Of a DNA stretch of 45,911 nt, positions 1 to 45,911 are shown in pieces. This DNA comes from a virus: positions 1-45,911 of IMG/VR virus record IMGVR_UViG_3300031753_000103. One strand, 5' to 3'. The notes beneath the pieces are model-generated. The model worked only from the letters and a program-made list of their open reading frames with translations. It searched no databases and had not been told where the DNA came from. How positions within the stretch are numbered: the first letter of the stretch is position 1; every line of letters begins with the position of its first letter. A program made the translations under genes and the position numbers.

Positions 1-127
1 ATCGCCCGCCGAGGGGACCGTGGCCGGCGCTTGTGGCTGTTCCGCGCTGGGCGCCCCCGGCTGGCCATCGGGGCCGGGAGAACCGGAAGCGCCCACTTCG
101 GCATTGTCATTTTGTCCGACGATGCCT
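1..127. repeat. Contig-end overlap, copy 1
   Basis: Identical base for base to 45785-45911. The 650-aa minus-strand gene reads through the join without a frame change, so the molecule is circular or circularly permuted. The exact length of 127 matches a common assembler k-mer. I infer an assembly overlap rather than a true terminal repeat. Confidence 0.95.
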
Positions 128-756
128 TGTCTCGGCCCGATTCCTACTCGCGCGGCACCATGAAACGGCGTCCATCCGGTTTTTGGCACCTGTGACAACG
201 CGTAGTCGATGCCCGCCCGCTCGTTCTGCGGCTGGCTAGGATCAAGCCCGGTCGAGCGCTTGAAGTCATCGCCCATGCCGCCGCCAACATGAAGCTGTAG
301 CGCGCCGAACGACGTACCTTTGTCTCCTACGGGGTTTCCAAGACCTTCCGAGGCCGCCACCTTGACGGCGACATCGGGGGCGATGCCGTAACGCTGCGCC
401 TCCTGCCGAATATACGGCACCAGCCCGCGCGGATCGCTGATCCCGCTCGACATTCCAGAGCCGCCCGGAGCTGGGCTAAAGCTAGTCGGATCTGGCGCCG
501 GTTCGGCCATCGGGATTTTGGTCGCACCCGGCAAGGTTGGCATCATGCCGCCCGTACCGCCGAGAAGCTGCGACCATTCGGCATTTCCGGCCTGCTGCGT
601 CTCCTGCTGCTGCTGCTGCTGGCGCTGCTGGTTTTGCAGATAGACCTGCAACATCGCGCGCCGGATCTGCGCGTCCTGCTGCTTCTGATAGTTTTCCGAG
701 ATCAGCCCGGCGCCTTGGCCGAGTCCCGCGAGGATACCGCCGAGGTTCAACGCCAT
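1..756 (-). CDS. Virion-associated lytic/ejection protein, N-terminal 252 codons (gene crosses the contig join)
   Basis: An ATG at 754-756 opens a frame that runs off position 1 and continues at 45784 down to 44588, giving a protein of 650 aa. Residues 24-60 are Gln-rich and probably helical (QKQQDAQ, then a polyQ run). Residues about 110-210 form a lysozyme/transglycosylase-like domain with ASEG (Glu137 as candidate acid) followed by GTSFGALQLHVGGG. A Pro/Gly-rich linker follows. I infer an internal virion protein that cuts peptidoglycan locally during DNA entry. It starts four bases after the stop of the 546-aa gene, with GGCGAG as a possible ribosome site. Its sister genes on both sides are also large, low-complexity virion candidates. 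Confidence 0.8.
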   Translation of the reverse strand, partial: MALNLGGILAGLGQGAGLISENYQKQQDAQIRRAMLQVYLQNQQRQQQQQQETQQAGNAEWSQLLGGTGGMMPTLPGATKIPMAEPAPDPTSFSPAPGGSGMSSGISDPRGLVPYIRQEAQRYGIAPDVAVKVAASEGLGNPVGDKGTSFGALQLHVGGGMGDDFKRSTGLDPSQPQNERAGIDYALSQVPKTGWTPFHGAARVGIGPRQGIVGQNDNAEVGASGSPGPDGQPGAPSAEQPQAPATVPSAGD

Positions 757-759
757 CGG

Positions 760-2400
760 TCAACTCGCCGGCAAAAATGATGCAAGGGTGCCGAACAAGC
801 CCGGCCCCGCTACGCCGCTCCCTGCGATGTCGGAAGTCGCGCCAGTCAACAGGTTCGTGTTAATCCCGGCCCCAAGCCCGGTGCCGGGCGCGATAATGCC
901 CCCTGCCCCGCTGCCAAACAGACCGCCCCCGCCACCGCCGAACAGGCTGTTAGCACCGCCGAGCAGCGGCCCGACACCGCCGATGGTTTGCCCAAGCTGA
1001 TTGACGCCCATCTGGCCGAGTTGCCCGGAAAGCTGCGAGGCCGACTGCCCAAGCCCCATGTATTGCATCAGGTCCGACATCAACTGCTGCGGCAACTGGT
1101 ACTGATTGTTGCCAAGCTGCGTCGTTTGGTTCAGCGCGTTGAGCGCGTTCGTTCCCATCGTCGTGCCGGTCGAGTACGGCTGGCCCGCGAGCGAGGTCAA
1201 CTGGCCCGCCGCCGTGCCCCCGAGGTTCTGAGAATTGATGAGGCCCGCACCGGCTCCGCCGAGCAGCGACGACAGCCCAGCCGCCCCCTGCACCCCCGCC
1301 ACGTTCTGCTGGCCGAGCGCCGACAAAAGCTGCCCGATGTTGCTACCGTAAAGGCTGTACGGCGCAGCGGCGGAACTTGCTGCCAACCCCGAGGCTCCGG
1401 TGAACCCCGGCAACGCCGATCCGAGGCCGGTCGTCCCCGCCTGTAGCTGCTGATTGAGAAACGGCGAGATCGCACCAAGCTGGCCGAGGTATGCTTGGCT
1501 CGGCAACGCACCGCTCGATGCCGCCAATCCCGGCGCGGCCTGCAACAGAGGCGAGGCCGCCCCCGCCGCCGTGGCCTGCCGGTTCAGTTGGTTGTTCTGC
1601 CAGTTGATGTCGAAATTGCCGAGCGCATTGCTGGTCACGCTCGCCCCGTAGGGCGTGCCCGCCACTCCCGACATCGCGTTGACCGCGTTCGATTGGTCGA
1701 GAAGCTGCTGCTGCGTCCGGTTGAACAGCGCCGATTGCGGATCGAAGCCGCTCTGCAACAGCGACTGCCCGGCATTACTGAGACTCTGCGCGCCGCCGGC
1801 ACCGTACCCAGCGCCCGCGCCTGCGCCCGCCTGCGCTGTCGGGTAATACGGATTTGCCTCGGCCATCCCGGCGAGTTGGCCGTACATCGGATTTTGCGCC
1901 AGGCCGGCTACATTCGAGGCGAGATTGCCGAGCTGCCCGGCACCGTAGCCGCCGATCCCCGCCGCCTGCCCCGCTCCCGCCATCGCCGGCGCGAAATACG
2001 GATTGTTTTGCAACGCCGAGATCGAGGCTCCGTAGAGCGGCGAGAAGGCGTTGTTCAGGACGTTGCTCGCGTAGGGCAGCGCCCCGCTTGCCGCGCCGCC
2101 CAGCGCCGAACTCCCGCCCACCCCCTGCCCAAACAGCGTCGGGGCATAACTCGCCGCCATCGAGGCGGCCATCTGCGCCTCGTTCGCCGCCGTCGTGGGG
2201 TCAAACGTCGTGCCGCTCGGGAGCAGGAACTGGTTGGCGAATTGCTGCGCCTGCGGGTACGCCACCCCGGCGGGCGTTGCGCCCGGCGTCTGCGGGAAAT
2301 TCTGCGCAATATTGCCGAGAGTCGCGCCGACTTGAGGCTGGCCAGGCGGAATAAAGACGGTGCCGCCGCTGCCGGTGCCGCCGCTCGATGCCGGTCCCAT
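760..2400 (-). CDS. Gly/Ala/Gln-rich probable ejection or tail protein, 546 aa
   Basis: Almost the whole protein is built of Ala, Gly, Gln, Asn, Ser and Leu, with many short GQA/GAGAG-type segments and no Cys-based or catalytic motif. Such composition is common in internal virion (pilot) proteins of podoviruses and in some tail proteins. The start ATG (2398-2400) shares a base with the stop of the acetyltransferase gene (TGATG). It lies directly before the 650-aa lytic protein and the 569-aa protein, and I infer that the three form the ejection set, comparable in position to T7 gp14-16. The family itself is not recognised. Confidence 0.65.
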   Translation of the reverse strand: MGPASSGGTGSGGTVFIPPGQPQVGATLGNIAQNFPQTPGATPAGVAYPQAQQFANQFLLPSGTTFDPTTAANEAQMAASMAASYAPTLFGQGVGGSSALGGAASGALPYASNVLNNAFSPLYGASISALQNNPYFAPAMAGAGQAAGIGGYGAGQLGNLASNVAGLAQNPMYGQLAGMAEANPYYPTAQAGAGAGAGYGAGGAQSLSNAGQSLLQSGFDPQSALFNRTQQQLLDQSNAVNAMSGVAGTPYGASVTSNALGNFDINWQNNQLNRQATAAGAASPLLQAAPGLAASSGALPSQAYLGQLGAISPFLNQQLQAGTTGLGSALPGFTGASGLAASSAAAPYSLYGSNIGQLLSALGQQNVAGVQGAAGLSSLLGGAGAGLINSQNLGGTAAGQLTSLAGQPYSTGTTMGTNALNALNQTTQLGNNQYQLPQQLMSDLMQYMGLGQSASQLSGQLGQMGVNQLGQTIGGVGPLLGGANSLFGGGGGGLFGSGAGGIIAPGTGLGAGINTNLLTGATSDIAGSGVAGPGLFGTLASFLPAS

Positions 2401-2867
2401 CAGAGCACCTTGAAGAAGATGGTCGAGCGCGGCTCAAACCCGAGAGCGAGGAAGAACGGCATCAGCGGCCGGCCGGCATTGTCATGCGCCATCACGACGC
2501 GCACTCCCTTGGCTCGCAACCCGGCGAGAGCGGTGCGCCACATGCGAAAACCGATACGGCTATTATCACGAAATGGCGGCGCAAGGTAGTGGCCGCAATC
2601 GAACGCAAAGAGCGTTCGGCGCGACGTAAAGTGGGGATGAACCTGAAAAGCGATGAACCCGGCTAGGGTGCCGTTCACCCGCGCCGTCCAGATCAGCAAC
2701 TGGCCCTCGCCCTCCATGCGCTTGAGCCAATCCCAATCGACATCGAGCGGGGCAGCGTCTTTGACGGGGCTGAGTTCCTCCCAATAGGCGAGGATCAAAT
2801 CCTGCACGTTCGCGCCGGTGAGGATGTCGGCCAGCTTCTCCCAGCCGAAGCGGACGCGCTCAGCCAC
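2400..2867 (-). CDS. GNAT-family acetyltransferase-like protein, 155 aa
   Basis: The start is GTG at 2865-2867, overlapping the stop of the upstream small gene. The order of segments fits a GNAT fold: an N-terminal helix pair, a strand region (LLIWTARVNGTLAGFIAFQV) near residues 58-77, a helix around GFRMWRTALAGLRAKGVRVV, and a C-terminal strand ending in GFEPRSTIFFKVL. Proteins of this kind sit beside virion genes in many podoviruses. The substrate is unknown, and acetylation of a virion or host component is only a guess. It is coupled at both ends to neighbouring late genes. Confidence 0.65.
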   Translation of the reverse strand: MAERVRFGWEKLADILTGANVQDLILAYWEELSPVKDAAPLDVDWDWLKRMEGEGQLLIWTARVNGTLAGFIAFQVHPHFTSRRTLFAFDCGHYLAPPFRDNSRIGFRMWRTALAGLRAKGVRVVMAHDNAGRPLMPFFLALGFEPRSTIFFKVL

Positions 2868-7215: not shown

Positions 7216-8654
7216 CAACTGCTCCATACACCAAAGATTGGAGCGTTTGTTGCTATTGCAGTTGTCGGCGTGGTGGCCGGATCAGCGAACGCCGCAGAAC
7301 CGCCAGCGACGGTGTATCCGGTTAGCGCGTTGTTGTTGTTGATGTGGCCTGTCAGGACCGCCGATCCGACAAGGGCCGTGCTGGCGATTGAACCGATGCC
7401 GGGCGTGCCGGTGCCACCAGCGGTCCAGATCGCTTGCATCGACTCAAAATACCAACCCGGCTCAAGATACACAGGGCTTGCAAGCGAAGCCGAGGCGACA
7501 ACGGCATTGGCTGCAAAGGATTGGTTCGCTGTGCCGAGAACTCCAAAATCGGCAAGCAGTTTGCCGGGATAGCCGTTGGTCGAGAGGATCGAGTAGAGTC
7601 CAGCATAAAGGTTGTTGTTTTGCCCTGTGTAAGTCGCTGTGATCTTGGCGCGCGCTTTCACAGCAAGGATCGGCGCGGCGAGATAGAATGGCAGGTAATA
7701 GATTGTGCCATTAGCCAGCGATAGCGAGTTGAGCGCTGTGCCGGCGATGAAAGGGATGATGCCAATACCGAGACGGCTGATCGTCGTCGAGGCCGCACCG
7801 CTGAACGGCACACCCCGCATCGTCTGCGCGCGGACTGGTCCGATCAGCACCAGCACATTCGCGGCCGTCCCGACGCTGATCGCGCTCGGTGCGTTGAAAT
7901 TGAAGGTCGGAGTGCTCGTGTTCTCGCTCGTGGCAGTCCAGTAGATCGCCGTACGCGCTAGTGTCGTGTGCGCGATGTCGGCGCCGAGGGTCAGCAGACC
8001 GACGCCTTCTTCCTCCTGCGAACGGGTTGTGAATGACGAGTTGGTGAACTCGATAATGTTGTACGAGACGGGGAAGGATTGAGTTGTGCCGAGGCCCTGC
8101 CCGGTATAGCCAGCGAAAGGATCAACGCCACCAGGCGGCGCGGGGCAGGCGGCACACGTCAGCGTCCCGGTGCCTGTGGTGGAGGTGCCGCAAACGAAGG
8201 CATCGCGCGGCAGCATCGAGCCGGATGCGCCGGTGGCGCCGGTCGAACCCGTGGCGCCGGTGGCGCCGGTCGAACCCGTGGCGCCGGTGGCGCCGGTCGA
8301 ACCCGTGGCGCCGGTGGCGCCGGTCGAACCCGTGGCGCCGGTGGCGCCGGTCGAACCCGTGGCGCCGGTGGCGCCGGTGGCGCCGGTCGCTCCTGTTGAT
8401 CCTGTCGCCCCGGTAGCCCCCGTCGCTCCTGTAGCCCCGGTGTGGCCTGTTGGCCCTGCCGGGCCAGCACCACCAGCCGCACCTGTTGCTCCGGTCGCGC
8501 CAGTGGGGCCGACCGTCCCGGTACCGCTCGCCGTTCCCGTGCTGCTGAGCGTGCCTGCCGCGAGTAGAAGCCCCTCGCCGACCTGTACGAGGCCGGTTCC
8601 GAAGGGGCCGCTGCCGAGCAGCGCCCCGCCGCGTGCTCCCTGCCCGGCCGCCAT
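7215..8654 (-). CDS. Collagen-like tail fibre protein, 479 aa
   Basis: A short N-terminal virion-binding part is followed by a long Gly-X-Y region (about residues 45-145) of GATGAT and GSTGAT triplets, a collagen-like trimeric shaft. The remaining 330 residues form a beta-rich distal part ([55 protein letters not shown]), which I take as the receptor-binding head. Five perfect 27-bp repeats (8227-8361) encode part of the shaft, so shaft length can change by slippage or recombination. It probably binds a host surface polymer. Confidence 0.8.
8227..8361. repeat. 27-bp tandem repeat, five perfect copies, in the fibre shaft
   Basis: The copies start at 8227, 8254, 8281, 8308 and 8335, with a partial copy after them. 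Each unit encodes nine residues (three Gly-X-Y triplets) on the minus strand, so gain or loss of units keeps the frame. Confidence 0.95.
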
Positions 8655-27350: not shown

Positions 27351-27659
27351 ATGAAGAAAGATCAGGACATGGAAAACGAACGGGCCGTTCTCGTCACGAC
27401 CGCGCATCGCGGCGTGTTCTTCGGCTACCTCAACGGAAGCTACAAGCCGGGCGATGCGGTGATCCACATGCGGGCTGCGCGCAATGTGGTCTATTGGCCG
27501 ACCGGCAACAGGGGCTTCCTCGGCCTTGCGGCAATGGGGCCAAAGGACGGCGCCCGAATTGGGCCACCGGCAAACATCGAACTGCGCGACATCACGTGCG
27601 TTGCCGAATGCACCGCTGATGCGGTCACCGGTTTTGAGCGTGCGCCATGGAGCCGGTAA
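27351..27659 (+). CDS. DUF6948-like phage protein, 102 aa
   Basis: ENERAVLVTTAHRGVFFGYL, then VYWPTGNRGFLGLAAMGPKD and ARIGPPANIELRDITCVAEC, ending FERAPWSR, follow the layout of a small conserved phage family (DUF6948, from memory). It is predicted to be a beta-rich single domain. The role is not known to me. An internal ATG (27369) with AGGA is an alternative start. The end overlaps the next gene by 13 bases. Confidence 0.6.
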   Translation: MKKDQDMENERAVLVTTAHRGVFFGYLNGSYKPGDAVIHMRAARNVVYWPTGNRGFLGLAAMGPKDGARIGPPANIELRDITCVAECTADAVTGFERAPWSR

Positions 27660-28348
27660 TCCTGCAAGGCGACGCGCGTAGCGCGTTCGACGGGTACGGG
27701 TACGGGTCCGGGGACGGGTACGGGTCCGGGTACGGGTCCGGGGACGGGTACGGGTCCGGGTCCGGGTACGGGTACGGGTACGGGTCCGGGTACGGGGACG
27801 GGTACGGGTCCGGGTCCGGGTCCGGGTACGGGGACGGGTCCGGGGACGGGTACGGGTACGGGTCCGGGTACGGGGACGGGTACGGGTCCGGGTCCGGGTC
27901 CGGGTACGGGGACGGGTCCGGGGACGGGTACGGGTCCGGGTCCGGGTACGGGGACGGGTACGGGTCCGGGTCCGGGTCCGGGTACGGGCTGTATTGGTTG
28001 GCCTGCCTGCCCTCACTCACGGAAGACTGGTCGCCGCAGCAACTCGGGCGGTTGTTGGAGTTGCAGACGTTGGGGGCCACGATCGCCTATTGGTGTTCGG
28101 ACAGCCAAGGGCGGCCTTGCAACGGGGGCCGAGGCAATCCAGTGGCTCCGGGACATATCGACACCGAACGCGGCCCACTGGCCCTGTGCGAGCGAGGGAC
28201 GCTGCACGCCACACAGATCCCGCCGAAATGGAAAGGCGACCGCCTTTGGGTTGTCGCGCTGATCGGCGATGTGGTCGGCGACGCGGAGAAGTTGGGTGGC
28301 CTGATTCGCGAAGCGATCGGCGAGGTCAAGCGCCTAGCCTCTATCTGA
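27647..28348 (+). CDS. Gly-X dipeptide repeat protein with DUF7666-like domain, 233 aa
   Basis: After MEPVILQGDARSAF come 50 consecutive dipeptides of Tyr-Gly, Ser-Gly or Asp-Gly (residues 15-114). The C-terminal domain (LYWLACLPSLTEDWSPQQL, GRPCNGGRGNPVAPGHIDTE, RGTLHATQIPPKWKGDRLWV, VALIGDVVGD) resembles DUF7666, a domain of unknown role found with similar Gly-rich runs in other phages. The tract would be flexible, perhaps phase-separating or self-associating. No catalytic site is evident. It overlaps the upstream gene and is followed by dyad S2. Confidence 0.65.
   Translation: MEPVILQGDARSAFDGYGYGSGDGYGSGYGSGDGYGSGSGYGYGYGSGYGDGYGSGSGSGYGDGSGDGYGYGSGYGDGYGSGSGSGYGDGSGDGYGSGSGYGDGYGSGSGSGYGLYWLACLPSLTEDWSPQQLGRLLELQTLGATIAYWCSDSQGRPCNGGRGNPVAPGHIDTERGPLALCERGTLHATQIPPKWKGDRLWVVALIGDVVGDAEKLGGLIREAIGEVKRLASI
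27689..27988. repeat. Hexanucleotide tract encoding 50 X-Gly dipeptides
   Basis: Uninterrupted units of TAC, TCC or GAC followed by GGG. Longer internal duplications are visible (a block encoding GYGDGYGSGSGSGYGDGSGD occurs twice, with a related partial third). Six-base units keep the frame, so copy-number change alters only length. Confidence 0.9.
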
Positions 28349-40764: not shown

Positions 40765-41304
40765 ATGAACTTCCAACCCATCGCCCACTACGACGTGCAT
40801 CTGCTCGCCGCGAGCCTCGTCACCCGCGACGGCCTGTGGCGGGACGCGCCTGAGCCGGGCCGCAAGCTGCTGCAAGTCCGCTTCCCGCGAGCCGGCACGA
40901 GCGACAGCGAAGACACAATCGCGTGGGCGATCGGGACCAACACCACGCGCCGGCAATGGCCCGAGCTGCACAACCTTATCGGCCGCATGAAGCGCGACAG
41001 CGAGGCGCGGATCGGTGCCGAGATCGAGATGGGGCGGCAGTACCTCGAAATGCTCGACCGGGGCGCACGGCTTGAGTGGCATGCCGAGGATGGGCCATAT
41101 TTCGAGCGCTACGCCCGCTCGCTGATCCCGCTGCGCACGAACCCGCATACGCTGCTGATCGCCGGCTGCGAGGTAGCCTCGCCTGGGCATGGCTGGCTGA
41201 CGTGGATGAACGTGCGGGCGCCGTGCGCGGCAATCAACATGGGCGATTGCCCGCTGGTGATGCTGGTGATCGACAGCCGCAGGAAGGAGAAAACCGATGC
41301 CTGA
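40765..41304 (+). CDS. 179-aa protein of unknown function
   Basis: MNFQPIAHYDVHLLAASLVT, then LLQVRFPRAGTSDSEDTIAW and a central helix (LHNLIGRMKRDSEARIGAEI). The C-terminal half has NMGDCPLVMLVIDSRRKEKT. Alpha/beta soluble protein. The in-frame sequence upstream is not coding-like, so this ATG is the probable start. Confidence 0.55.
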   Translation: MNFQPIAHYDVHLLAASLVTRDGLWRDAPEPGRKLLQVRFPRAGTSDSEDTIAWAIGTNTTRRQWPELHNLIGRMKRDSEARIGAEIEMGRQYLEMLDRGARLEWHAEDGPYFERYARSLIPLRTNPHTLLIAGCEVASPGHGWLTWMNVRAPCAAINMGDCPLVMLVIDSRRKEKTDA

Positions 41305-41590
41305 GAAGCAGCCTCTCGTCGCCTACTCCGTCGCTCTCTCCTACGGGACGGGGGCGTACGGGACAGGCGCTCTAATCGTCAATACCATCGTTGCCCCCTC
41401 GCCCGAGGCCGCGGTCGCGATGATGACCGACATGCTCTACCGCCAGCGGATACCGACTGACACGCTGACCTGCGTTGCCGTGGTGCCGATGACGCTGGAA
41501 TGGCTGCGCTGGGCCACCCGCGCGGTCGAGAGCGGCGATCCCAACGGCGGGCGCGTGCTGTCGCTGGTGCAGCCGCCGCCTGCGGCCTAG
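41297..41590 (+). CDS. 97-aa protein, last rightward early gene
   Basis: MPEKQPLVAYSVALSYGTGA, then TIVAPSPEAAVAMMTDMLYR and VVPMTLEWLRWATRAVESG. Alpha/beta. It overlaps the upstream gene by 8 bases and the opposing ATP-grasp gene by 4 bases tail to tail, so no terminator separates the early rightward and late leftward transcripts. Confidence 0.55.
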   Translation: MPEKQPLVAYSVALSYGTGAYGTGALIVNTIVAPSPEAAVAMMTDMLYRQRIPTDTLTCVAVVPMTLEWLRWATRAVESGDPNGGRVLSLVQPPPAA

Positions 41591-42885
41591 GCGTACCGCA
41601 AGCCCATCGCGTAGCCGTGCGCGTTCAGCTTGTCGATCTCCCCCCGTAACCGCGTCCCAATGTCTTGGCGGTAGAAAGGCGATGCTGGAATGCTCAACCG
41701 CTCGATGGCCCGCAGCGCCTTGCCGCGAGCCTCGACGACCGTCTCGCCCGTGCCGCTGGCGATCAGCACATAATCCCCCGCCGTCTCAAGCGCATCCTTT
41801 CCCTGCTTGACCTCAGCAAAATGCAATCGGGGCAGCAGGGCGGGCGTAATCCCATGAATGGGGATGCCGACCACCTGCTCGTAGTCGGCCACCGGCCCGG
41901 GGAATGGCGGTAGCGCCAGCACGATACCTACCGCGACCTCGTTCATTCGATGCGCGTGCTTCGGCGGGCGTCCTTCGGCAAGCCCCGCCAGAAACTCGAT
42001 GAAATCGCCCTCGACCAGCGCTTGCTCGATGCCGCAAGCAGGCCAACCGCACCTGGCCGTCCATTCGAGCGGCCACGCCGCGCCGTCCTCGTCGATGATC
42101 GTGTTGCAATCCATGCAGCCGACGAACCCGGTGCGGCTCAGCATGTCCTCGACGGGCTTCAGCACCTTGTCGGCGAGCTTAGACCGTGACACAAAACGCA
42201 TCACGGTCCCCATCTCGCCGGTGTTCGGCCCGATGTCGCCGGCGCACAACCTTTTGTGCTCGTGGTTTTCCTCCCATTCGCCGGTAAAGCCAGCGGGGCC
42301 AAACCAGCATCCGACGCCCAATTCGACGCCCTTGATTGGCTCTTGAAGGATGAACGTGCCCTTCGGCCGGCCGTGCCGCCGCTTGAACTGGCGCAGCATG
42401 TAGGCCGGGTCTTCGTCAACCCCGCTCTTGCACGACAGCGCCTTGTCGGCGTCGGGCCAGCACGGCTTGGAATAAAACGGGTGCCCCACCTTCTCGATGA
42501 AGGCAATGGCTGAATCGTAATCGGTGAACTCGCGGACGGGCGGGATGGCAATGCCGGCACGCTTGAAGATCGCCATGCCGTGCAGCCGGTCGTTCTCCCA
42601 AGCGGCGCTTTCCGGCGTGCCGCCGATCCAGGGGACGCCGCGCGCTGTGCAGCGGCGCTGGATTTCCAGCATCGGCAGGTCATTCGATCCGAGGATGGCA
42701 AGGTCGCACCAGCCGATTGATTCCCGCCAGTCTCCGACGCGCGTTACGAGGCCGGTGCCGACCGGGCACTTGCGCGCGTCCCACCCCTGGCAGAAGTACC
42801 GCACGTCGTGACCGTGCGCTTGTGCTCGCAGCATGAGATCGAGCAAGCCGTCCGGGGTCTTTTCGATCCCGAGAACCCGCATCAC
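41587..42885 (-). CDS. PurD-like ATP-grasp ligase, 432 aa
   Basis: ATP-grasp enzyme of the phosphoribosylamine-glycine ligase (PurD) type. GHPFYSKPCW (Lys140), FILQEPIKGVELGVG (Glu182, residues 178-192), the PurD-like signature GPNTGEMG (219-226), CMDCNTIIDE and LEWTARCGWP (Glu274, Arg278) form the nucleotide and metal site. Such enzymes join a carboxylate (glycine in PurD) to an amine. The N-terminal domain (VLGIEKTPDGLLDLMLRAQA) lacks the usual PurD GxGGREHAL loop, so the substrate probably differs. It is the last gene of the virion operon. Candidate roles are nucleobase or nucleotide modification, or decoration of a virion or host amine. Confidence 0.8.
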   Translation of the reverse strand: MMRVLGIEKTPDGLLDLMLRAQAHGHDVRYFCQGWDARKCPVGTGLVTRVGDWRESIGWCDLAILGSNDLPMLEIQRRCTARGVPWIGGTPESAAWENDRLHGMAIFKRAGIAIPPVREFTDYDSAIAFIEKVGHPFYSKPCWPDADKALSCKSGVDEDPAYMLRQFKRRHGRPKGTFILQEPIKGVELGVGCWFGPAGFTGEWEENHEHKRLCAGDIGPNTGEMGTVMRFVSRSKLADKVLKPVEDMLSRTGFVGCMDCNTIIDEDGAAWPLEWTARCGWPACGIEQALVEGDFIEFLAGLAEGRPPKHAHRMNEVAVGIVLALPPFPGPVADYEQVVGIPIHGITPALLPRLHFAEVKQGKDALETAGDYVLIASGTGETVVEARGKALRAIERLSIPASPFYRQDIGTRLRGEIDKLNAHGYAMGLRYA

Positions 42886-44591
42886 GGCCCGCCGACGCTG
42901 TGCCTCGGCTCCCGCGCGGGCGGCTCGATGTAGTCGCCGTCCGGGTAGCGCCTTGGCGGCGACGGGGGCGGCTGCGGAAAGCCGCGTGATGGTAGCGGCG
43001 GCATGGCCGGCCCGCCTTGTGACGGCGCCGCTGCCCCGCTACCGAGCATCCTGAGCCCCATCGCGCCCTGATCCGGCGGCTGGCCATAGCGCCCCATGCT
43101 CGGCGATCCCACCTCCTTCATCGCCTCGCGCCGCTGGAACATGCGCATTATCGCCCGGTTCGGATCGTTGAGATACCGCACGGCGTGTTTTGAAATCTGC
43201 GCGGCGGCCCCGCTTGCGAGCATCTTTGGATTGACCGTCGCCAAACCCATGAGGATCTGGTGCGTCGTCGCGACATCGGCCATGCGGTTGAGCAATCCAG
43301 GCTTCTTCGCCAGTTCACGGCTCGCCGCCTTGGTCACGTCATCCTCGATTGAGCGCAGCGCACCGTACTGATGCTTGAACGCCTGATAGCCAGGGGTGGT
43401 CGCGTTTGAGATCGCCGAATCCAGCAGCTCTCGGTGCATCGTGGCGATCGGCTCAAAGACATCGCCTTGCGCCTTCATCTTGTTCTCGTAGTATGAGCGC
43501 CATTCGCCGTTGATGAGTTTGATTCGTTTCTGCATCTGCAACGGCGTCTCGACCCCTATCTTTTCAAGGTCATCGGCCTTGCGCAGCAACTTGGCGGCCC
43601 AATCGGGATGTTCCGAGGCAACCACCGGATCGCGACCGATTTCTCGATATTTAGCCACGATCGGCGACAGCGGGATCACGACCCCCATCTCCCCGGTCTG
43701 CCGGGCGAGCGCATCGTACTTCTGGAAAAGCTGCGACTTGATCTGGTCAATCGAGTCGGAAAACTGTCGCAAGGTCCGCGGAAGCATGCCCGGCCGCTCT
43801 GCGTTACCGGCCGCGTCGGTCAGCTTCAGCGTGTTCTTGTTCTCGATAATCTGGTCAATAGCCGTGATGATACGCCGGTCCTGCTCATCCAGCCTTGGCG
43901 CGCTCTTTCGTCCCTTGAGGCCGGGGTTAATCGCCTGCCGGTACTGCTGCGAAATCGCGCGATCCACCGCCCCGGGGTTGTTCTCGGCAATCGCGGAACC
44001 AAGAGTGGACGGCTCAGGGGCCGGTGCAGGCGTCGGCTCAGGCCGTGGCAACGGCTCAACCCGACCGCCGCCAGCCTGTGCGATCTGCTCAGGCGTCTTT
44101 GGCCCGCCGTAGATGCCCTTACCGCCGCCCCTGACATCGCCCATGACGCCACGCGCGCCGGCGAGCATGGACGGTGCTTCAGCCGCCTCCGTGGTCAACC
44201 CTCGCGCTGGGCCGCCGCCTGCCATCAGCATTGCGGTCCCGAGGCCCTGCGCCGGCGACTGCGGCCCCGGCTGCTTCTCGCCCGTCAGGTACTGCCCCGG
44301 CGTCTTGATGGCTTCCCACAGCGATTCGCCGATGCCGCGCGCCGCCGAGCCGAGCATGCGCCCACCGAAGCCGGAACGGCCGCCGGCAAATTTCGATGCG
44401 CGGCCCTCGGGGATGCCCTTGCCTTCGACGCCAGCGGCGACGCCCGAGCCGAAATTCTTGATCCCCTGCCAGATTTCGTCACCGATGCCTTGCGCGGGTG
44501 CGGCCGCCGGTCCAGATGGTTTGATTGTGTATCCCGGCGGCAGCCCACCAGCGGCAGGCTTGATTGTATACCCTTCGGGCAAATCACTCAT
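42882..44591 (-). CDS. Large internal virion/ejection protein candidate, 569 aa
   Basis: The start overlaps the upstream stop (ATGA). The N-terminus has two copies of a short repeat (LPEGYTIKPAAGGL, PPGYTIKPSG), a motif I have seen at the start of phage ejection proteins. A Gly/Ala region (GIKNFGSGVAAGVEGKGIPE) and a Pro-rich linker precede a long helical domain (residues about 230-470; LRQFSDSIDQIKSQLFQKYD, MHRELLDSAISNATTPGYQA). It ends Pro/Gly-rich. Third member of the 546-650-569 aa set. No enzyme motif. Confidence 0.65.
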   Translation of the reverse strand: MSDLPEGYTIKPAAGGLPPGYTIKPSGPAAAPAQGIGDEIWQGIKNFGSGVAAGVEGKGIPEGRASKFAGGRSGFGGRMLGSAARGIGESLWEAIKTPGQYLTGEKQPGPQSPAQGLGTAMLMAGGGPARGLTTEAAEAPSMLAGARGVMGDVRGGGKGIYGGPKTPEQIAQAGGGRVEPLPRPEPTPAPAPEPSTLGSAIAENNPGAVDRAISQQYRQAINPGLKGRKSAPRLDEQDRRIITAIDQIIENKNTLKLTDAAGNAERPGMLPRTLRQFSDSIDQIKSQLFQKYDALARQTGEMGVVIPLSPIVAKYREIGRDPVVASEHPDWAAKLLRKADDLEKIGVETPLQMQKRIKLINGEWRSYYENKMKAQGDVFEPIATMHRELLDSAISNATTPGYQAFKHQYGALRSIEDDVTKAASRELAKKPGLLNRMADVATTHQILMGLATVNPKMLASGAAAQISKHAVRYLNDPNRAIMRMFQRREAMKEVGSPSMGRYGQPPDQGAMGLRMLGSGAAAPSQGGPAMPPLPSRGFPQPPPSPPRRYPDGDYIEPPAREPRHSVGGP

Positions 44592-45911
44592 TGCGCCGGC
44601 ACCCACGTACCACCGCGATAGACCAGATCGGGCTTGCCCGGTGCGGTCGCGATGTCACCTTCCTTCGGGCCGGTAGGTGCCGCGTCTTGCTGTTGCTCCA
44701 CCACCCGGTTCTTTTCGACGAACGACCTAAACGTGTCCTGATCGCCAGCTTTCTCACGGAATGCAAGAACCTCGGCCGGCGTCCACGGAATCGCTTTGGT
44801 GATCGACTCGCGCATCGCCTTGGCGTAATCCTTCTGTTGCGCGCCGACCCAATCGGTGTTGACGACCCCCTCCAAGGCATTGTCAACGGTCTGCCGCATA
44901 CGGGCGAGATTGTAGAGTTTCACGAGATTGGTCTGGCCCGGCTTCAGCGAGAGAGCGCCGAAACTTTGCGCCGCCCACTTTCCCCCGTAGACAGGCGAAG
45001 TCACAATCGACAATTCCCGCTCAAGATTCGCAAGAGCGCTATTCGTCAACTGCGCGTCCTCGTCGGTCAGCGTCTCGGCAAGATTCTCTTTCAAAGCGTC
45101 CAGCAATCCAGGCCCCTGCTGCCTTCCGCCGAAGATGCCTCGGTTAGTGGAAATCGGCATTTTGGAAACATTTTCGAGGTCGGACTGGATTTCACGCGCA
45201 GCGATGATCTGGCGCTGCACCTGAGCGCCGCTGCGCCCCGCGCCGCCTGCGGCCCCCTTGCCGGTGTCCTCAACGCGATCAGAAACAATCGGCTCTCCGG
45301 TGGCTGAGTTAACCCACCCGGTCGGCGTCATCTTCGCCGATCCCTCGAATACCTTCTCGCCGTCCTTGAACGCGACGATGTTGTGCGGCTGGCTCTCCCC
45401 TCCCTTCGTGCCAATGACGTGCGCGCCCCCCGGTAGCGTGATCGGCTGCGCTTCGTTGCTGCCAGGCCGTACCCGCATCGGACCCTTGTCGGTTTCAAGG
45501 ATCGTGCCCGGTTCCTCCGCGCGCTTACGCTGCTCGTCGGAGAGTTTGTTGGCGCGCTCCCAATCCTTGATCTCGGCATCAACCTGCGTCTTGTATTGCT
45601 CCCATGCGCGTTTGGCCTTCTCCTGCTCGACCGGGGCGAGACGCGCCCTCTCGTCGTTGTAGATTTTCAGCTTCACGGCCCCCGGCAGGTTCGGGTACGC
45701 CTGGTCGATCTTTTGGGCGAGCGCCGTGTCGCTCATCTTGCCATTGACATCGGGCGGGATGATCGCGTTGAGCCGCTTGCGCAGATCGCCCGCCGAGGGG
45801 ACCGTGGCCGGCGCTTGTGGCTGTTCCGCGCTGGGCGCCCCCGGCTGGCCATCGGGGCCGGGAGAACCGGAAGCGCCCACTTCGGCATTGTCATTTTGTC
45901 CGACGATGCCT
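44588..45911 (-). CDS. Virion-associated lytic/ejection protein, C-terminal 398 codons (continues from 756-1)
   Basis: This is the rest of the 650-aa protein. The 45785-45911 segment repeats 1-127, and the unique part is 44588-45784. After a Pro/Gly linker it is strongly helical and charged (DTALAQKIDQAYPNLPGAVK, AKRAWEQYKTQVDAEIKDWE, LSDEQRKRAEE), then mixed (QRQIIAAREIQSDLENVSKM, QTNLVKLYNLARMRQTVDNA, WTPAEVLAFREKAGD). It ends with PDLVYRGGTWVPAQ. The long helices fit a channel-forming ejection protein. The gene-like start at 45878-45880 is internal, not real. Confidence 0.75.
   Translation of the reverse strand, partial: GIVGQNDNAEVGASGSPGPDGQPGAPSAEQPQAPATVPSAGDLRKRLNAIIPPDVNGKMSDTALAQKIDQAYPNLPGAVKLKIYNDERARLAPVEQEKAKRAWEQYKTQVDAEIKDWERANKLSDEQRKRAEEPGTILETDKGPMRVRPGSNEAQPITLPGGAHVIGTKGGESQPHNIVAFKDGEKVFEGSAKMTPTGWVNSATGEPIVSDRVEDTGKGAAGGAGRSGAQVQRQIIAAREIQSDLENVSKMPISTNRGIFGGRQQGPGLLDALKENLAETLTDEDAQLTNSALANLERELSIVTSPVYGGKWAAQSFGALSLKPGQTNLVKLYNLARMRQTVDNALEGVVNTDWVGAQQKDYAKAMRESITKAIPWTPAEVLAFREKAGDQDTFRSFVEKNRVVEQQQDAAPTGPKEGDIATAPGKPDLVYRGGTWVPAQ
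45785..45911. repeat. Contig-end overlap, copy 2
   Basis: Same 127 bases as 1-127, lying in the Pro/Gly linker of the 650-aa gene. Remove one copy when circularising. Confidence 0.95.

Follow-up and report, generated by a model that had tools for sequence, protein, structure and literature searches.

The viral genome analysed here, the whole 45,911-nucleotide stretch of the IMG/VR record IMGVR_UViG_3300031753_000103 (hereafter the window), encodes at the end of its late operon an ATP-grasp enzyme with the complete fold of PurD, the GAR synthetase of purine synthesis, in which the residues that select the PurD substrates appear to have been exchanged for another, strictly conserved set. We predict with high confidence that this window ligase is a carboxylate-amine ligase other than PurD. 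The full explanation that we prefer, namely that a PurD-fold carboxylate-amine ligase performs no GAR synthesis and most likely has a virion protein or another late protein as its target, is held more tentatively, at slightly less than an even chance.

The ligase gene (41587–42885, minus strand) is a single uninterrupted frame of 432 codons, in which the motif GPNTGEMG occupies residues 219–226 and LEWTARCGWP residues 273–282. The ORF of the window opens with a GTG codon; the relatives start one codon later, at ATG 42882, and the likelier product is therefore probably a protein of 431 aa. The sequence at this point reads ...CCG TGA TG..., where the A of the ATG is the final base of the TGA stop codon of the upstream gene, thus forming a TGATG overlap. 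The ligase and the window features discussed together with it are the following:

41587..42885, minus strand: PurD-fold ATP-grasp ligase, by ORF, Pfam/NCBIfam and AlphaFold2 (probable start ATG 42882, 431 aa)
42882..44606, minus strand: putative ejection-type late protein of 574 aa, directly upstream of the ligase, by the SLT (L038) and Peptidase_M15_3 (L011) domains of its relatives
44588..45910, minus strand: C-terminal portion of a late protein (about 650 aa as a whole), its frame traced by arithmetic through the 127-bp repeat
1..756, minus strand: N-terminal portion of the preceding protein of about 650 aa, continuing across the record ends
760..2400, minus strand: late protein of cluster F1, 546 aa, in relatives kept between the GNAT and the large late proteins
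2400..2867, minus strand: GNAT acetyltransferase, 155 aa, by PF00583 (E 6.6e-7), phrog_1249 (E 9.2e-10) and synteny
40765..41304, plus strand: distant Asp/Asn beta-hydroxylase-like (2OG) relative with an eroded iron motif, convergent to the ligase, by alignment (start inferred)
1..127 = 45785–45911, no strand: exact direct terminal repeat of 127 bp, closed genome of about 45.8 kb

The terminal repeat shows the genome to be closed, and the late operon accordingly runs on uninterrupted over the junction of the record ends. The window also holds two internal arrays. A 300-bp tandem array of GGGTAC/GGGTCC/GGGGAC-type hexamers at 27689–27988 (TRF period 78, 95% matches) lies in the plus-strand ORF 27647–28348, where it reads as a Gly-Tyr/Gly-Ser/Gly-Asp repeat, and 27-bp tandem repeats at 8227–8438 (5.6 copies, 100% matches by TRF) are located inside a collagen-like tail-fibre gene (PF01391).

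Of the Pfam domains of PurD, GARS_A is matched by the window ligase above its cut-off (E 7.7e-11) and GARS_C below its cut-off (E 1.6e-6), and GARS_N gives no match. The NCBIfam purD model TIGR00877 scores 105.2 bits and does not reach the curated equivalog cut-off of 288, and a PHROG search returned no match for the window ligase or for the copies in L001 and L087. The AlphaFold2 model, obtained from 57 aligned sequences, has a mean pLDDT of 94.1 and a pTM of 0.92, and the top 15 matches in a Foldseek comparison with the PDB are all GAR synthetases (E 4.7e-31 for 2yw2). Superposition on 2yw2 with VIA-align gives a Z score of 36.7 and an rmsd of 3.1 for 396 aligned residues with 24% identity, and a Z score of 32.8 was obtained for 1gso, also PurD. 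The next structural matches are PurT, PurK and PylC, at Z 23–25. The superposition on PurD covers the N-terminal domain, with the alignment starting at residue 2, and by this model the window ligase is a complete three-domain PurD architecture, N-terminal domain included. The viral structure library BFVD holds 35 matches at E<=0.001, which are partial ATP-grasp matches with TM (query) <=0.45.

A scan of viral contigs with a single sequence found nothing, and the family was reached only by a profile of two sequences, the window ligase and a protein of MW202796.1, Caudoviricetes sp. (Manatee Spring). The latter is a phage member of the family with 37% identity to the window ligase; its gene lies 3' of a large late gene with a GNAT upstream, but is unannotated in the record. 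The profile matched 181 viral-contig stretches, of which 150 encode relatives, and the best 80 were kept. In the 82-sequence phage alignment many columns are invariant, many catalytic ones among them. Values of dN/dS between 0.026 and 0.269 in all 75 printed pairs (70–98.5% identity, the pairs not being independent) indicate that the phage gene is under purifying selection. With the open frame, the two motifs and the confident model, these relatives and ratios confirm the PurD-like ATP-grasp ligase that the original prediction placed at 41587–42885.

Among 84,980 species genomes, 115 relatives were found and 80 kept, which HMM score and neighbourhood divide into 14 phage or prophage copies (>400 bits), from Paraburkholderia (prophages L087, L088 and L091), Sphingomonas, Rhodanobacteraceae and others, and 66 cellular copies (277–343 bits). 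The cellular copies are about 28–35% identical to the window ligase and are scattered in the chromosomes of DPANN archaea, CPR bacteria, haloarchaea and Proteobacteria, including Woeseiaceae, Parvularculaceae and others; they do not lie in phage late operons. Two plasmid-borne members, from Halarchaeum and Sphingomonas, are named 'phosphoribosylglycinamide synthetase C domain-containing protein' at NCBI. A FastTree tree of 180 sequences unites 96/96 phage sequences (0.933), 66/66 cellular sequences (0.999) and 18/18 PurDs (1.0), and because these three groups are rooted on PurD, the cellular family is placed as the sister of the phage clade, a relation that shared substitutions support independently. 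Of the 27 records that matched in a collection of named phages, 26 are 22–28% identical to the window ligase, like true PurD, and were set aside; the annotated ones are host purD, and the others were judged host-like by identity alone.

In Aquifex PurD, ATP is contacted by K103, K143, E185, E192 and K214, and glycine by D212, R287 and E292 (PMC8880213). A phmmer alignment maps these ATP contacts to K140, Q181, E188 and K211 of the window ligase, with R100 as the first of the series by another alignment, and the glycine contacts to E209, R278 and A283, of which the Arg alone is retained. Residues were then counted in 96 phage and 66 cellular members against 18 true PurDs; a 19th PurD row, L165, is a wrong-strand translation and was left out of these counts and of the tree. 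K140, E188, K211, E274 and R278 are identical across the three groups, and the ATP and metal residues K140, E188, K211 and E274 are retained in 96/96 phage sequences, in agreement with the earlier view that the ATP-grasp core is intact.

The remaining positions set both families apart from PurD. R100, Q181, E209, E224 and T276 are each present in 96/96 phage and 66/66 cellular members, where 18/18 PurDs have Lys, Glu, Asp, Gly and Asn, respectively, and D259 is found in 90/96 phage and 66/66 cellular members in place of a Tyr in 18/18 PurDs. At position 283, the Glu of 18/18 PurDs occurs in 1/66 cellular members and is outside the four commonest phage residues, which cover 91/96 sequences. Y372, in 95/96 phage sequences, takes the place of a fixed C-domain Arg in PurD and of what is mostly Val in the cellular family. 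Conservation of E224 and E209 was partly selected for, because the search patterns contained TGE (E224, cellular set) and residues 194–210 including E209 (phage set), but R100, Q181, D259, T276 and Y372 are outside these patterns. The placement of D259 and N261 beside E274 and T276 is, as we take it, reminiscent of D-Ala-D-Ala ligases.

The GGREH loop, which in PurD participates in phosphoribosylamine binding, shows a similar exchange. Its Arg has a frequency of 0.95 in PurD (19 rows, including L165), while the commonest residue at this position is Asn in the phage sequences (0.22) and Leu in the cellular ones (0.95). The original prediction held that the N-terminal loop of PurD is absent and proposed a structural comparison of the N-terminal domain; the motif is indeed lost, but the loop is replaced, not deleted, in a domain that is present and superposes on that of PurD. 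As for PurD itself (TIGR00877; 2yw2, 1gso), the phage ligase thus has the full-length fold, the ATP lysines, the Mg glutamate, the carboxylate-binding Arg and the C-terminal RxDIG, but differs by the lack of GGREH, by TGE for TGG and EFT or EWT for EFN, by changes of the glycine-site Asp and Glu, by Tyr for the C-domain Arg, and by surroundings that contain no purine genes. The substituted catalytic set is common to the phage ligases and the cellular 'phosphoribosylglycinamide synthetase C domain-containing protein' family. Because of this residue pattern relative to PurD, ATP-dependent carboxylate activation looks intact in the window ligase, whereas the means of selecting glycine and phosphoribosylamine appear to be lost.

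A true PurD that supplies purines as an auxiliary metabolic gene would account for the shared fold and the two Pfam GARS domains, and viral purD/GART is reported and treated as a purine gene in several virome papers (PMC11097641, PMC12043954, PMC11360552). This cannot easily be reconciled with a score of 105 bits against a cut-off of 288, or with the altered glycine and phosphoribosylamine contacts. Furthermore, a set of 27 ligase-bearing phage records was searched, made up of the window, MW202796.1 and a choice of 25 viral contigs of 37–45 kb from the 80 kept. PurF (TIGR01134) was found in 0/27 and a PurN-type formyltransferase (PF00551) in 0/27, with models that are positive in 14/14 and 12/14 control genomes. 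The absence of both from 27/27 records, window included, is in line with the original statement that no other purine gene is present and that de novo synthesis is unlikely. The hosts, moreover, retain their own enzyme: a true PurD (>288 bits) is also present in 18 of the 22 cellular genomes with a family member. No PurD over the cut-off was found in G006, G010 and G022, the hosts of L103, L117 and L158, which are reduced DPANN/CPR genomes (Woesearchaeota, Diapherotrites, Jorgensenbacteria), or in a fourth genome, a Rhodanobacteraceae assembly; most such genomes are drafts, in which absence is not proof. Judged by score and residues, the window ligase is not PurD, and a role in purine supply is highly improbable.

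The late operon runs on the minus strand in the order GNAT (2867–2400), F1 (2400–760), the protein of about 650 aa (756–1, continued to 44588), the 574-aa protein (44606–42882) and the ligase. The upstream late proteins of the window, the 574-aa protein included, gave no family match. The protein encoded upstream of the ligase was tested in four relatives: that of L038 carries SLT, a transglycosylase domain (E 5.6e-15), that of L011 carries Peptidase_M15_3 (E 5.7e-5), both being peptidoglycan-hydrolase domains, and those of L068 and L087 gave no domain match, so that the label of a putative ejection protein for the gene in the window derives from L038 and L011. Such domains would fit T7 gp16-like ejection proteins. 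The gene junction was measured at 54 loci outside the window that have a nearby upstream gene of at least 250 aa (longest-ORF starts). At 32 of them the ligase begins inside the upstream gene, with an overlap of 4 nt in 25 and of 1 nt in 3, and at 38 the distance is at most 31 nt. Together with the TGATG overlap of the window, this bears out the coupling to a late ejection-type gene that had been proposed. Since the phage ligase is translated with the last ejection-type gene, it is made late, during virion assembly.

The position directly after ejection-type genes would also suit an inactive virion component, i.e., a PurD-fold protein that is packaged, or used as a scaffold, together with the ejection proteins. 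Conservation of K140, E188, K211 and E274 in 96/96 phage sequences would not be required of a protein without catalysis, and we regard such a role as improbable.

A GNAT of a single family is encoded upstream on the same strand, at a median distance of 4.9 kb, in 40 of the 53 loci with at least 8 kb of upstream sequence. It is missing in the other 13, and a two-enzyme pathway is therefore not obligatory. By phrog_1249, which is positive in all 14 control genomes and thus a general acetyltransferase signal, a GNAT is present in 22/27 phage records. A hydroxylase-like protein is found upstream in 7 of the 13 GNAT-less loci. The overall count for this family, 16/49, is an upper bound, the HMM having been iterated and several members being without the HxD/E motif. 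The relatives in L087, L094, L026 and L082 match PF05118, and the protein at 40765–41304 of the window has no Pfam match. In the alignment, the distal His of the window copy is replaced by Cys and the Arg by Leu, and L003 and L004 are without the first His. These two eroded copies occupy the same convergent place as that of the window. The hydroxylase-like protein looks like a relic or pseudo-enzyme in the lineage of the window, to judge from its residues.

The original prediction had grouped the ligase with a methyltransferase and a PAPS-reductase-like protein as candidate modification enzymes, had named DNA bases, nucleotides or a virion component as possible targets of the ligase, and had proposed the neighbours of homologues as a check. 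Both proteins are real in the window (phrog_67, a DNA methyltransferase, and phrog_424, respectively), which is what speaks for a function in DNA-base or nucleotide modification. Across the 27 phage records, however, the N6/N4 methyltransferase family PF01555 occurs in 1/27, the window only, phrog_424 in 3/27, window included, and thymidylate-synthase-type enzymes (PF00303) in 0/27; single-protein searches with the methyltransferase and the PAPS-reductase-like protein of the window returned the window itself only. The ligase gene is also late and away from the replication genes. With the tested families almost never shared, the neighbour analysis does not support the proposal, and DNA-base or nucleotide modification is a very unlikely function. 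The actual companions of the ligase are the GNAT and, less often, the 2OG hydroxylase-like protein, neither of which had been named.

Based on the residue pattern, a reaction sequence can be proposed for the preferred non-PurD ligase. Mg-ATP would be bound by the ATP-grasp lobes through K140, K211, E188, E97 and E274, and a carboxylate substrate held by R278 would be phosphorylated to give an acyl phosphate. Attack of an amine on this intermediate would yield an amide, ADP and phosphate. The pockets for glycine and phosphoribosylamine would be replaced by the conserved set R100, Q181, E209, E224, D259, N261, T276, W281 and Y372, and both substrates should therefore differ from those of PurD. 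Amide-bond formation, the chemistry originally suggested, is supported in that we infer it from the retained residues. The target of the ligase would be a virion or other late protein, and the GNAT of the same operon might use the same amine or a related one. This target we likewise infer, and considered by itself it is somewhat less probable than not.

Being encoded late is no proof of a virion target, and a small-molecule product is about as possible. A ligase of the latter type would make a late amide-linked metabolite, such as a conjugate of an amino acid or a nucleotide, that serves to take over the host, to counter its defences or to stabilise the particle. The nearest folds, PurD followed by PurT, PurK and PylC, are all small-molecule enzymes, and some of the varied neighbourhoods of the cellular sister point the same way. 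In 6/66 cellular loci, from Gammaproteobacteria, a cluster C4 protein is encoded immediately upstream of the ligase (L141 7411–8952, L154 8409–9950 and four more), and the member in L141 is a PGM1/BesA-like ATP-grasp peptide ligase (NF042917, 146 bits with a cut-off of 750; PF18105, E 3.9e-11). Judged from the protein starts, apparent glycogen genes follow in L141 and L154. A gene of a methyltransferase cluster is directly upstream in 3/66 loci, L158, L159 and L146 (Pfam match for L158); the hosts of these are two Patescibacteria genomes and one Magnetobacteriaceae genome. On a Roseomonas plasmid, a type III polyketide synthase and an aminotransferase adjoin the cellular family member. These neighbourhoods are weak hints at peptide or small-molecule amides, and the PGM1/BesA-like and methyltransferase neighbours point to small molecules and peptides as much as to proteins. 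On the other hand, a free metabolic enzyme would have no need of the fixed position within the structural operon that most of the 54 loci show, and we consider a small-molecule ligase a serious but not the leading candidate, at clearly less than an even chance.

A more specific form of the preferred explanation, the modification of a virion or late protein, is that a dedicated late set, composed of the PurD-derived amide ligase, the GNAT and often the hydroxylase-like protein, lies among the ejection genes and covalently decorates injected or tail proteins. The phages that carry it, from the environment and from Paraburkholderia, would then make up a large group that has gone unrecognised. We consider this reading, the group of carriers included, rather unlikely as it stands.

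ATP-grasp enzymes of other types are known from phages. The early clusters of LUZ24-like phages contain an amidoligase, a glutamine amidotransferase and an ATP-grasp protein of 291 aa (PMC3890496). These resemble the present system in the combination of a phage ATP-grasp enzyme with amide chemistry, but the protein is smaller and early, and its amidoligase and GATase partners were not noticed among the neighbours inspected here. The R2K/CDC123 ATP-grasp peptide ligases are also found in phages and have been proposed to modify proteins; they are described as a divergent clade (PMC4431377), and by that description they would be set apart from the phage ligase. R2K ligases in phages appear in a further source as well (PMC7824862). 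Literature searches found no paper that describes the non-PurD ligase family of phages and cells.

The phage ligases thus form, by their sequences, a new clade of the known ATP-grasp superfamily, with a distinct and highly conserved active site, and the cellular sister family persists in some tiny genomes without a PurD over the cut-off. The current names of both groups refer to purine synthesis. Some of the published viral purD/GART calls may belong to the non-PurD family (PMC11097641, PMC12043954, PMC11360552); a re-examination is due, for which a residue test at E224, T276, position 283 and Y372 can separate the non-PurD family from PurD. The link to ejection genes raises the testable question of whether injected phage proteins are covalently modified. 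If the late decoration of such proteins is true, it would be a hitherto undescribed kind of post-translational modification of virions.
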